57,518 nt of DNA from Candidatus Roizmanbacteria bacterium GW2011_GWC1_37_12 (GTDB taxonomy: Bacteria; Patescibacteriota; Microgenomatia; UBA1406; GWC2-37-13), in NCBI GenBank assembly GCA_000991135.1, contig LBST01000008.1, positions 1-57,518 on the forward strand. Direction: 5' to 3'. Below the pieces are notes generated by a model that worked only from the letters and a program-made list of their open reading frames with translations, did not search any database and had not been told where the DNA came from. The translations under genes were made by a program, and so were the position numbers. Below are positions 4,091 through 56,624 of this stretch, in pieces (positions within the stretch are counted from its first letter, which is position 1; each line of letters begins with the position of its first letter).

Positions 4091-4238
4091 AAGTCTTTTG
4101 AAAACAATTTAATAATTTAACAATGAAACAATTTTTTTTATTTGTCTATGGACTATACGCTACAAAGCAGGTATTTTAGACTATTAGGACAATATAATTT
4201 TCTCGATATGCCATCTTTTTACAAATATTTAAAGCTGT

Positions 4239-11538: not shown

Positions 11539-11586
11539 ATATTGTAAATAATATATAAAATTGCTAGAATAGAGTGTAAGAAATAA

Positions 11587-11660
11587 GGAGTCATAGCTCA
11601 ATTGGCTAGAGCACTTCCCTGTCACGGAAGGGGTTGGGGGTTCGAGTCCCCTTGGCTCCG
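11587..11660 (+). tRNA. tRNA-Asp (anticodon GUC)
   Basis: Acceptor GGAGTCA/TGGCTCC, anticodon stem CTTCC/GGAAG with loop CTGTCAC, T-stem GGGGG/CCCCT and discriminator G. CCA is not encoded. A TAGAAT box lies about 15 nt upstream. Confidence 0.95.
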
Positions 11661-11732
11661 CCTTCGTCCGCCGAAGCTTTCAGCGGAGGCGGAATTCGCT
11701 TCGTCGGACTACGGCGGACTGTGTCCGCCGTA
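11661..11732 (+). repeat. GC-rich palindromic repeat cluster after tRNA-Asp
   Basis: Overlapping inverted repeats fill the gap between tRNA-Asp and the HD gene. The clearest is TACGGCGGAC-TGT-GTCCGCCGTA at 11710-11732; another pairs TCCGCC with GGCGGA around 11667-11693. They resemble the CCGAAG-type palindromes at 16877 and 38479. Confidence 0.7.
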
Positions 11733-34143: not shown

Positions 34144-34217
34144 GGTCCCGTCGTCTAGCGGCCTAGGACATCTGGTTTTCAGCCAGAGAATCAGGGGTTC
34201 GAATCCCCTCGGGATCA
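34144..34217 (+). tRNA. tRNA-Glu (anticodon UUC)
   Basis: Acceptor GGTCCCG/CGGGATC, anticodon stem TCTGG/CCAGA with loop TTTTCAG, T-stem GGGG/CCCC and discriminator A. CCA is not encoded. Its last two bases are already part of the following palindrome. Confidence 0.96.
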
Positions 34218-34253
34218 CCCCGCTCAGCGGGGTGTCAGGACGCTCAGCGTCCT
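34216..34253 (+). repeat. Mini-palindrome pair at the tRNA-Glu 3' end
   Basis: CACCCCGC-TCA-GCGGGGTG (34216-34234) and AGGACGC-TCA-GCGTCCT (34237-34253). The 48-bp block 34215-34262 is repeated with one mismatch after tRNA-Arg at 38807-38854. A T-rich run follows, so the second hairpin may also end tRNA transcription. Confidence 0.9.
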
Positions 34254-34366
34254 CACCTCGTTTTTGTTTTTTTACTATTTTTAGTGTGGAGATAAATCTG
34301 CTAAACTAATCGCATAATTTATATTACTAGCTAACTCTGAAACAATTTTTTGTAGGTTATAGTCCG

Positions 34367-34394
34367 TTGACAAGAATATTAATTTATTGATAAT
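34367..34394 (+). promoter_or_regulatory. Promoter of the GIY-YIG gene
   Basis: TTGACA at 34367-34372, a 16-bp spacer and GATAAT at 34389-34394, 6 nt before the ATG. The decayed copy at 38928 keeps TTGACA at the same 34-nt distance from its ATG. Confidence 0.7.
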
Positions 34395-34400
34395 AGAATA

Positions 34401-34673
34401 ATGTTTTATGTTTATATATTGTTTTCAGAAAAAGATAGACTTCTTTATACAGGCTATACCGATGATCTAAAATCTCGTTACAAAATGCATATGAATGGAT
34501 TTGTTAAGTCGACAAAATATCGAAGACCATTAAAGCTTATTTATTATGAAAGTTATATTAATGAATTAGATGCAAGACGTAGAGAGTTGTTTCTCAAAGG
34601 AGGAAATGGAAAAATATTCCTTAAAGAACAGTTAAAGGTAACATATAAAAGTATTAGATATAAATATTTATAG
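34401..34673 (+). CDS. GIY-YIG nuclease superfamily protein (YhbQ/UPF0213-like)
   Basis: The product has 90 residues and is a single GIY-YIG domain: YVYILFSEKDRLLYTGYTDDLKSRYKMHMNG carries the Y..Y and TGYT core and the conserved arginine, and ELDARRRELFLKGGNGK holds the helix with the catalytic glutamate. Single-domain members resemble the cut module of homing endonucleases and UvrC; their cellular role is usually unknown. It follows tRNA-Glu and two mini-palindromes, with its own promoter. A truncated copy with the same upstream layout follows tRNA-Arg, suggesting that the gene and its flanks move together. Confidence 0.85.
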   Translation: MFYVYILFSEKDRLLYTGYTDDLKSRYKMHMNGFVKSTKYRRPLKLIYYESYINELDARRRELFLKGGNGKIFLKEQLKVTYKSIRYKYL

Positions 34674-34743
34674 ATTTGGTTCCAATTCCGTATCCCTTGG
34701 GTTACATTTAGATTTTTCTAACAATAAGAACTCTACTTAATGA

Positions 34744-38459: not shown

Positions 38460-38565
38460 TAATGCCTGCTTAACTCAGCGGTATCCGCCTTCGCTGAAGC
38501 TACGGCAGGACAAGGAAGTAGCTGTTTTGCTTGTCCTCCGAAGTCTTAACGAAGGAGGATAAACA
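38460..38565 (+). other. Possible tRNA remnant split by an inverted pair of palindromic elements
   Basis: GCCTGCTTAACTCAGCGGTA resembles the first 20 bases of a tRNA but no matching 3' half follows. Instead there is a CCGCCTTCG...CGGCAGGACAAG element (38485-38516) and, after 15 bases, the same element type inverted (CTTGTCCTCCG...CGAAGGAGGAT, 38530-38560). The tRNA interpretation is weak; the inverted element pair is clear. Confidence 0.35.
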
Positions 38566-38637
38566 GCCGACCTAGCTCAATGGTAGAGCACCTGTTTTGT
38601 AAACAGGTGGTTATCGGTTCGAGCCCGATGGTCGGCT
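38566..38637 (+). tRNA. tRNA-Thr (anticodon UGU)
   Basis: Acceptor GCCGACC/GGTCGGC, anticodon stem CCTGT/ACAGG with loop TTTGTAA and T-stem ATCGG/CCGAT. CCA is encoded at 38638-38640. Confidence 0.96.
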
Positions 38638-38640
38638 CCA

Positions 38641-38737
38641 AGAGCCCATAGTTCAACCCAAAGTACACTTACTTGCTCGCGAGGTTTACATCCTCGCCTC
38701 GCAAGAGCGCGACTTCGGGGCAGGCGAATAGAATAAT
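38641..38737 (+). other. Intergenic piece with tRNA-like start and hairpin
   Basis: GAGCCCATAGTTCAA looks like a tRNA 5' part. A hairpin GCGAGG-TTTACAT-CCTCGC follows, whose loop looks like a Val (UAC) anticodon loop, but no complete cloverleaf can be folded. It may be a decayed tRNA-Val or chance similarity. Confidence 0.25.
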
Positions 38738-38809
38738 GAGTCTGTAGTTCAATGGACAGAATAAATCCCTTCTAAGGATTAGATGGCAGTTCGATTCTGC
38801 CCAGACTCA
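38738..38809 (+). tRNA. tRNA-Arg (anticodon UCU)
   Basis: Acceptor GAGTCTG/CAGACTC, anticodon stem AATCC/GGATT with loop CTTCTAA, T-stem GGCAG/CTGCC and discriminator A. CCA is not encoded. The last two bases overlap the mini-palindrome, exactly as in tRNA-Glu. Confidence 0.96.
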
Positions 38810-38845
38810 CCCCGCTCAGCGGGGTGTTAGGACGCTCAGCGTCCT
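38808..38845 (+). repeat. Mini-palindrome pair at the tRNA-Arg 3' end
   Basis: CACCCCGC-TCA-GCGGGGTG (38808-38826) and AGGACGC-TCA-GCGTCCT (38829-38845), the same pair in the same order and position as after tRNA-Glu. Confidence 0.9.
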
Positions 38846-38911
38846 CACCTCGTTGTGTTAATATATATATCGAAATAATTAGACCGCTATTTAGCTACAA
38901 TGTATAAGTTA

Positions 38912-39040
38912 TGTAGGTTATAAGCGATTGACAAAATTTCTATTTTAATAATAATAGAGTAATGTTTTATGTTTACATATTATTTTCAATTAATGTATAA
39001 TTTAATTTTCCAATTTCGTATCCGATGGGTCACAATTAAT
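38912..39040 (+). pseudogene. Decayed copy of the GIY-YIG gene
   Basis: The upstream block (TGTAGGTTATA ... TTGACA at 38928 ... ATG at 38962) aligns with 34351-34403 with unchanged spacing. The frame starts MFYVYILFS like the intact gene but then reads INV and stops at 38998. The downstream flank (TTCCAATTTCGTATCC near 39007) matches the flank of the intact gene (near 34680). About 240 bp, covering nearly the whole coding region, have been lost by an internal deletion. Confidence 0.8.
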
Positions 39041-56396: not shown

Positions 56397-56468
56397 GCGC
56401 CCTTAGCTTAACGGATAAAGTATCTGTCTTCGGAACAGATGATGGGGGTTCAATTCCTCCAGGGCGCA
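56397..56468 (+). tRNA. tRNA-Arg (anticodon UCG)
   Basis: Acceptor GCGCCCT/AGGGCGC, anticodon stem TCTGT/ACAGA with loop CTTCGGA and T-stem GGGGG/CCTCC. CCA is encoded at 56469-56471. Confidence 0.95.
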
Positions 56469-56477
56469 CCAAAACCA

Positions 56478-56550
56478 GGGTCCGTAGCTCAACTGGTAGA
56501 GCAGTGCCCTCTTAAGGCATTGGTTGAGAGTTCGAGTCTCTCCGGACTCA
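56478..56550 (+). tRNA. tRNA-Lys (anticodon CUU)
   Basis: Acceptor GGGTCCG/CGGACTC, anticodon stem GTGCC/GGCAT with loop CTCTTAA and T-stem GAGAG/CTCTC. CCA is not encoded. A T5 run follows directly and may end transcription. Confidence 0.95.
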
Positions 56551-56624
56551 CTTTTTGTTGTTAAAATAAGCTAAATAATTTCAATCCTCATGGAGTTGAA
56601 TGAGAGGATGATTTTGAGGTTATA

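Follow-up and report, generated by a model that had tools for sequence, protein, structure and literature searches.

What kind of DNA is it that follows a tRNA gene so closely as to begin on its last bases, and that recurs, in reduced form, behind a second tRNA gene a few kilobases away? The DNA analysed here (the window) is a stretch of 57,518 nucleotides, contig C8 of a Patescibacteria host genome (G000) of 994,505 bp in 18 contigs, with Ca. Roizmanbacteria as relatives. In it, tRNA-Glu is followed by two hairpins, a promoter and a gene for a GIY-YIG protein, an arrangement that a first-pass annotation had taken for a small mobile or homing cassette aimed at tRNA 3' ends. The reading that we prefer, with a probability of roughly three in four, is that of a selfish mini-element, composed of two hairpins and a minimal GIY-YIG nuclease, that inserts at the ends of tRNA genes. 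All features described below are on the forward (+) strand unless otherwise indicated.

The host gene of the intact element, tRNA-Glu(ttc) (34144..34219), is complete according to both ARAGORN and Rfam and is the single copy in the genome. The left end of the element is a 48-bp block (CACCCCGCTCAGCGGGGTGTCAGGACGCTCAGCGTCCTCACCTCGTT; 34216..34263) that begins on the last bases of the tRNA and comprises two perfect stem-loops (34216-34234 and 34237-34253; z of approximately -5.4 when folded against shuffled sequence). An intrinsic terminator scan gave no prediction at this block. The motif CGCTCAGCG occurs four times in the window (0.22 expected), each time inside this block or its second copy. 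Downstream is the 22-bp box TGTAGGTTATAGTCCGTTGACA (34351..34372), which ends in the -35 hexamer TTGACA (34367-34372); with the -10 hexamer GATAAT (34389-34394), this gives a TTGACA-16-GATAAT promoter scored at 11/12 in a promoter scan. The intact 90-aa gene (34401..34673) is followed by a right-end flank (TTCCAATTCCGTATCC plus TGGGTYACA; 34680..34704) that is common to both copies. Every part of the layout reported in the first-pass annotation, from the tRNA through the two-palindrome block and promoter to the GIY-YIG gene, is present where it had been placed.

The second copy follows tRNA-Arg(tct) (38737..38812; ARAGORN), which is complete. It consists of a hairpin block with one internal mismatch (38808..38854), a 22-bp box with TTGACA (38912..38933), a truncated GIY-YIG gene encoding MFYVYILFSINV before a stop codon (38962..39000) and the right-end flank (39008..39032). 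As had been claimed, the two copies agree in the block, in the start of the protein, in the distance from TTGACA to ATG (34 nt in both: 34367/34401 and 38928/38962) and in the right end, where both are closed by CCAATTYCGTATCC (34682 and 39010); the deletion within the gene, first given as about 240 bp, amounts to approximately 233 bp. The block occurs only twice genome-wide, once with the gene and once with its remnant, which is not the outcome that would have counted against the proposal, namely a block found everywhere without the gene.

The product of the intact gene matches PF01541 with 48.4 bits (E 1.2e-12; curated cut-off 22.6), confirming its identification as a GIY-YIG protein. It is a single GIY-YIG domain (AF2 pLDDT 96.5) without a separate DNA-binding domain, and its closest solved relatives are UPF0213 proteins (BH0048, 1zg2) and Slx1, with I-TevI more distant. 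Residues Y5, Y16, G18, R26, H30, E62 and K66 are invariant among 35 sequences, and the residues expected to form the active site are among these. Comparison of the G000 gene with that of its relative G007 yields a dN/dS of approximately 0.19 (0.154/0.79; NG86 only). Judged by these substitution estimates, the protein is maintained under purifying selection and is no relic.

The association with tRNA genes extends well beyond the window. The host genome contains 45 tRNA genes and seven stand-alone GIY-YIG genes, as well as a long ORF with one GIY-YIG domain. Of the stand-alone genes, four have a same-strand tRNA gene (Tyr, Ala(ggc), Gly(gcc) and Glu) 64-207 bp upstream, and the chance of four in seven falling within 250 bp of a tRNA gene is approximately 3.5e-8. 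The further copies at tRNA genes that the first-pass annotation had suggested searching for were found in part: three more GIY-YIG genes follow tRNAs, but the hairpin block does not recur with them. In 57 related genomes searched with PF01541, the flanks of 101 GIY-YIG genes were examined, and 50 of these genes adjoin a tRNA or tmRNA gene, invariably on the same strand. Two arrangements are seen. In the 5' type, a complete tRNA begins where the GIY-YIG gene ends, or overlaps its last few bases; the 3' type, represented by the window element, has a complete tRNA first, next the hairpins and last the GIY-YIG gene. When the GIY-YIG genes without a neighbouring tRNA were checked with Rfam for RNA genes of other kinds, a single 23S rRNA and a single tmRNA were all that was added.

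In a tree of these genes, which rests on few columns and has many unresolved forks, the window gene falls within a 40-gene clade located almost entirely at structured-RNA genes (one member, in L099, is downstream of tmRNA). Homologues mostly away from tRNA genes would have refuted the original proposal; this does not hold for the window gene's own clade, but it does describe two further clades of 19 genes each, which are mostly not at RNA genes. The occurrence of these related clades in the same genomes, away from tRNAs, and the lack of a biochemical test are points against the selfish-element reading, as are the absence of a separate DNA-binding domain, the restriction to a single pair of empty and occupied sites with near-identical flanks, the want of a clear target duplication in the 3' type and the metagenomic nature of the assemblies (see below).

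A wider, protein-only search of GTDB contigs and IMG/VR yielded 81 loci, all but a few of which belong to named groups of Patescibacteria. This survey represents the clade of L066, a locus considered below, and leaves out the window gene's own sub-clade. A tRNA gene is directly downstream on the same strand in 65 of the 81 loci (tmRNA in one), and no locus has one on the other strand within that range. The isotypes include Asp, Val, Lys, Phe, Thr, Asn, Ile, Gln, Met, Glu, His, Leu and Gly. At L019, L059, L063, L073, L089 and L297, the GIY-YIG stop codon is within the tRNA, so that the C-terminus of the protein is translated tRNA 5' sequence.

Occupancy of orthologous tRNA genes varies within the genus. 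At tRNA-Glu, there is a 3'-type element in G000 and G007 (L115; protein 78% identical, hairpin block identical), a 5'-type element in G019, G015 and also G040, a genome of the same order, and no element in G004, G010, G011, G013, G018, G001 and others, several of which show the same upstream gene; one relative thus carries the window element at this tRNA-Glu, and at least six lack it. At tRNA-Tyr, a 3'-type element is found in G000, a truncated gene in G013, and nothing in G007 or G018. At tRNA-Asn, G010 has a 3'-type element, G004, G019 and probably G011 have gene-less 5'-type remnants, and G000, G001 and G014 are empty. Given this patchy occupancy of tRNA-Glu, tRNA-Tyr and tRNA-Asn, we conclude that the element comes and goes, and that it shares targets with introns. 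Decayed copies are found at 38808-39032 in the window, L193 and L173. That a small mobile cassette is associated with tRNA genes, as proposed, is supported by the many isotypes, the use of one strand only, the presence and absence within the genus, the decayed copies and the one pair of empty and occupied sites with a target duplication (discussed below). Relatives with empty tRNA sites, which the annotation had named as support, were found for tRNA-Glu, tRNA-Asn and tRNA-Tyr; at tRNA-Asp, it is the window that is empty and a relative that is occupied.

The introns in question belong to group I and interrupt the anticodon loop of tRNA-Asn (L180 in G003, L181 in G016, L182 in G012 and L183 in G013). 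They are approximately 190-225 bp in length, lack an ORF and match RF00028 with up to 102 bits. RF00028 matches were obtained solely in these four loci, none of which has a GIY-YIG gene there; the scan found no group I intron at the GIY-YIG loci of the host genome, nor at L066, L073, L096 or L107.

Two gene-less stretches lie upstream of the decayed window copy. The first is a 5'-type remnant before tRNA-Thr(tgt) (38464..38565): it is the 5' half of an older tRNA-Thr(tgt), interrupted by two hairpin-forming inserts, and matches the intact tRNA-Thr of G011 (L111) and G001 (L117). In this region (window 38464-38640), the present tRNA-Thr(tgt) is unlike the older gene upstream of it, and it looks from the sequence as if an essential tRNA gene has been replaced here. 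The second stretch, before tRNA-Arg(tct) (38641..38736), contains GAGCCCATAGTTCAA and hairpins; it is a probable 5'-type remnant, on the basis of resemblance only.

One insertion can be compared directly with its empty site. In the window, tRNA-Asp(gtc) (11587-11662; site 11585..11662) is unoccupied and the sequence AAGGAGTCATAGCTC (11585-11599) is present once. At the orthologous tRNA-Asp locus of G010, a member of the same genus (L066), the same neighbouring gene is followed by a 307-bp insert and then by a complete tRNA. The left flanks are identical at 56 of 58 positions (2 mismatches in 58 bp), and AAGGAGTCATAGCTC flanks the insert to the left and to the right, as a target duplication of 15 bp. 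The sole ORF of the insert is the GIY-YIG gene, with no known transposase and no tyrosine or serine integrase. This is the only pair of empty and occupied sites with near-identical flanks. A second empty site in the window comprises tRNA-Arg(tcg) and tRNA-Lys(ctt), with 6 bp between them (56397..56551); L019, L028 and L029 have the same neighbouring gene and a GIY-YIG gene between the two tRNAs.

Repeats resembling the tRNA-Asp duplication are common in the 5' type. In relatives, the DNA before the gene often copies the first 10-24 bases of the following tRNA, and in 42 of the 65 survey loci the gene is preceded by a repeat of 10-27 nt that is identical to the start of the tRNA (shuffling, p<=0.01), mostly beginning at tRNA position -5 to +1 and ending at 9 to 21. 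In related elements at Val (L096) and Lys (L065), the duplication matches the respective target tRNA, which disfavours a tRNA piece carried over with the element. The assemblies are metagenomic and repeats are prone to misassembly, yet dozens of independent assemblies show this pattern.

For the 3' type, that of the window, no clear target duplication was found. A displaced 3' tRNA fragment behind the gene is clear only at L057 and suggestive at L039; the other significant 3'-fragment matches at 3'-type loci are the following tRNA itself. The right flank of the window element resembles the tRNA 3' end only weakly (p 0.12, best local match), and a 3' target duplication is therefore not claimed. 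The tRNA 3' end, originally proposed as the target, is one of two positions, and the 5' end is the better documented of these.

The duplications also bear on the alternative that survives best, free-standing homing of the SegB type. Here, a tRNA allele lacking the element would be cut and the gene copied into it by allelic recombination, with moves between different tRNAs being rare and accidental. Phage SegB, too, has a GIY-YIG domain, is found near tRNA genes of many isotypes and cuts tRNA genes (PMC13096335). Such homing would also be in keeping with the occupation of the Arg(tcg)-Lys(ctt) pair by one clade across several genera, and with the window tRNA-Thr, which differs from the older tRNA-Thr represented by the 5' half upstream, as would be expected had the downstream part been exchanged. 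The gene has the trait of a stand-alone enzyme: it is not surrounded by an intron or intein and is outside the complete tRNA. Allelic homing does not, however, predict a duplication matching each new tRNA (Asp, Val, Lys) and is at odds with closely related elements at different isotypes (L066, L096); SegB is also larger. Allelic conversion without duplication is contradicted for the 5' type by the 15 bp at tRNA-Asp and the repeats at 42 of 65 loci, and remains undecided for the 3' type. We regard this alternative as unlikely, if still in contention. As to the cassette being a "homing" one, mobility is supported, but homing in the strict sense has not been shown.

The TTGACA of the window element closes a 22-bp box (TGTAGNNTATANNCNNNNGACA) that has approximately 24 sites in this genome and is found in 19 of 20 genomes of the genus (0 sites in a reversed control). 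A third window site is on the reverse (-) strand (4143-4164), and L209-L238 are the genus-wide loci. Genes downstream of the box in the genus encode RecA, RadC, ComM-like proteins and SLBB-HHH proteins resembling ComEA, as well as Trp-repressor-like proteins, IS200-like transposases and 23S-rRNA-intervening-sequence proteins. By inference, these genes may constitute a regulon for DNA uptake or recombination in the genus. The box precedes the GIY-YIG genes at tRNA-Glu (G000, G007), tRNA-Arg and tRNA-Ala (G000) and tRNA-Tyr (G013), and not every 3'-type gene has it.

Hairpins at the left end are a recurring part of the layout. The stretch from duplication to gene (5' type) or from tRNA to gene (3' type) was folded against shuffled sequence, giving a median z of -2.6 for the 5' type and -4.7 for the 3' type, compared with approximately -0.2 for control flanks. 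The sequences of the hairpins vary between loci and their paired arrangement recurs: what is conserved of the hairpin block is its layout and not its sequence, except between G000 and G007. As to terminal inverted repeats, hairpins are found at the left end only, and no matching right end was noticed, although no systematic search was made. The 48-bp block was considered as a general signature and dropped, since it has only two copies in the genome and other loci have different hairpins in a similar layout. Hairpin-only inserts are also found at the 5' end of tRNA-Lys, between the GIY-YIG gene and the tRNA (L271, L274, L295, L306, L319 and similar loci).

If the hairpin were itself the mobile unit, moved in trans by an IS200-like (Y1/RAYT) transposase, the GIY-YIG gene would be a mere passenger. 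The hairpins do resemble REP-like palindromes, they occur without the gene at tRNA 5' ends (L172, L271, L274), and IS200-like transposase genes also have the 22-bp box. IS200/IS605-type transposition is, however, known to yield no target duplication, and duplications are observed; the hairpin sequences are unlike one another between loci, and the nuclease active site is under purifying selection. We consider this account improbable. Least tenable is the view that the gene is immobile and serves the host in maturing or regulating tRNAs, next to which it would be retained so as to be co-transcribed: the strict co-orientation, the purifying selection and a number of stop codons that fall on the tRNA 5' end or within it would suit this view, but the patchy distribution within the genus, isotypes that vary by genome and truncated copies in G000 and G013 do not, and the empty and occupied sites with their target duplication contradict it.

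The selfish mini-element that we prefer would be approximately 300-500 bp in length, with two tandem hairpins at the left and then one minimal GIY-YIG nuclease gene. It would enter tRNA genes of nearly every isotype at their ends, and always in the orientation in which they are transcribed. An insertion at the 5' end would duplicate approximately 10-27 bp (tRNA positions of about -5/+1 to 9-21), so that a complete tRNA comes to lie behind the element and a useless 5' piece in front of it; with an insertion at the 3' end, the case of the window, the complete tRNA would remain upstream of the hairpins and gene. The position, the orientation and, for the 5' type, the duplication are observed, and cutting, copying and trimming are inferred. 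The nuclease is inferred, with no biochemical test, to cut or nick tRNA genes, perhaps via folded or branched DNA; repair or recombination may then copy the element into the break, with fill-in giving rise to the duplication. That targets are recognized by structure is a guess based on their mix and on the likeness to Slx1. The host would survive because one complete tRNA remains and the tRNA processing of the cell trims the ends; normal 5' and 3' processing may thereby release the tRNA at low cost, much as splicing hides introns. In part of the 3' type, expression may be coupled to the putative DNA-uptake or recombination regulon.

A further-reaching form of this reading is put forward tentatively, without our being persuaded of it. 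It envisages a new class of transposable element in which the sole protein, a minimal GIY-YIG nuclease, would recognize the fold of tRNA, tmRNA or rRNA genes as DNA and make two offset nicks, the hairpin-headed unit being copied with a target duplication and, in some lineages, co-expressed with the DNA-uptake machinery. One trait of transposable elements, occupied and empty sites with a target duplication, is met for the 5' type only. Such a class is possible and unproven.

On the selfish-element reading, indispensable tRNA genes of reduced genomes have been invaded repeatedly without loss. If true, this would be a clear example of a selfish element made harmless by the processing of tRNA ends instead of by splicing. 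It would help to account for the many small GIY-YIG genes in Patescibacteria and would extend the phage SegB-tRNA link to bacterial chromosomes. The nuclease is very small (78-90 aa), and its preference for structured-RNA genes is testable. For annotation, it is relevant that tRNA genes here are partly duplicated and sometimes replaced.

No description of GIY-YIG elements at tRNA ends, or of their hairpins and duplications, was found in the literature searched, from which subscription journals were mostly absent. The closest solved structures by both sequence and fold, the UPF0213 protein BH0048 (1zg2) and Slx1, share the minimal GIY-YIG domain. Slx1 acts with Slx4 on branched DNA, and we know of neither Slx1 nor the UPF0213 family as a mobile element. 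The group I introns of tRNA-Asn (G003, G012, G013 and G016) are another kind of selfish DNA that this genus carries in its tRNA genes; they interrupt the tRNA and splice out, whereas the GIY-YIG elements leave a complete tRNA alongside.

Inserts with a GIY-YIG ORF have been described in CPR rRNA genes; they are neither group I nor group II introns and were judged to be outside the context of homing (PMC11270868). CPR genome papers also mention homing endonucleases or protein genes between the genes of rRNA operons (PMC8172020, PMC7143001). These inserts are similar to the present elements in bacterial group, GIY-YIG ORF and use of structured-RNA genes, but lie inside rRNA, whereas the elements described here are at tRNA ends, are frequent and have target duplications. 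L085 (G027:C248) carries a GIY-YIG gene of the window clade within a 23S rRNA gene and in the same orientation; it may be an insert of the published rRNA type (PMC11270868).

SegB and the other free-standing GIY-YIG enzymes of T-even phages share with the window family a nuclease gene, free of introns, beside tRNAs of many isotypes. SegB drives tandem amplification of a tRNA-segB unit (PMC13096335), which is comparable to an array in L067 (1-6000; G023:C2) of 13 perfect copies of a 357-bp unit, made up of a tRNA-Ser-like 5' half and a GIY-YIG gene; this array may be a true amplification or an assembly artefact. The phage proteins are only weakly related in sequence to the window family, for which cutting is inferred and not shown, and they belong to phage genomes, whereas the present elements are found in bacterial chromosomes and have a minimal 78-100-aa domain, a left hairpin pair and, at 5' ends, a target duplication. 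Phage SegB is the nearest functional parallel.
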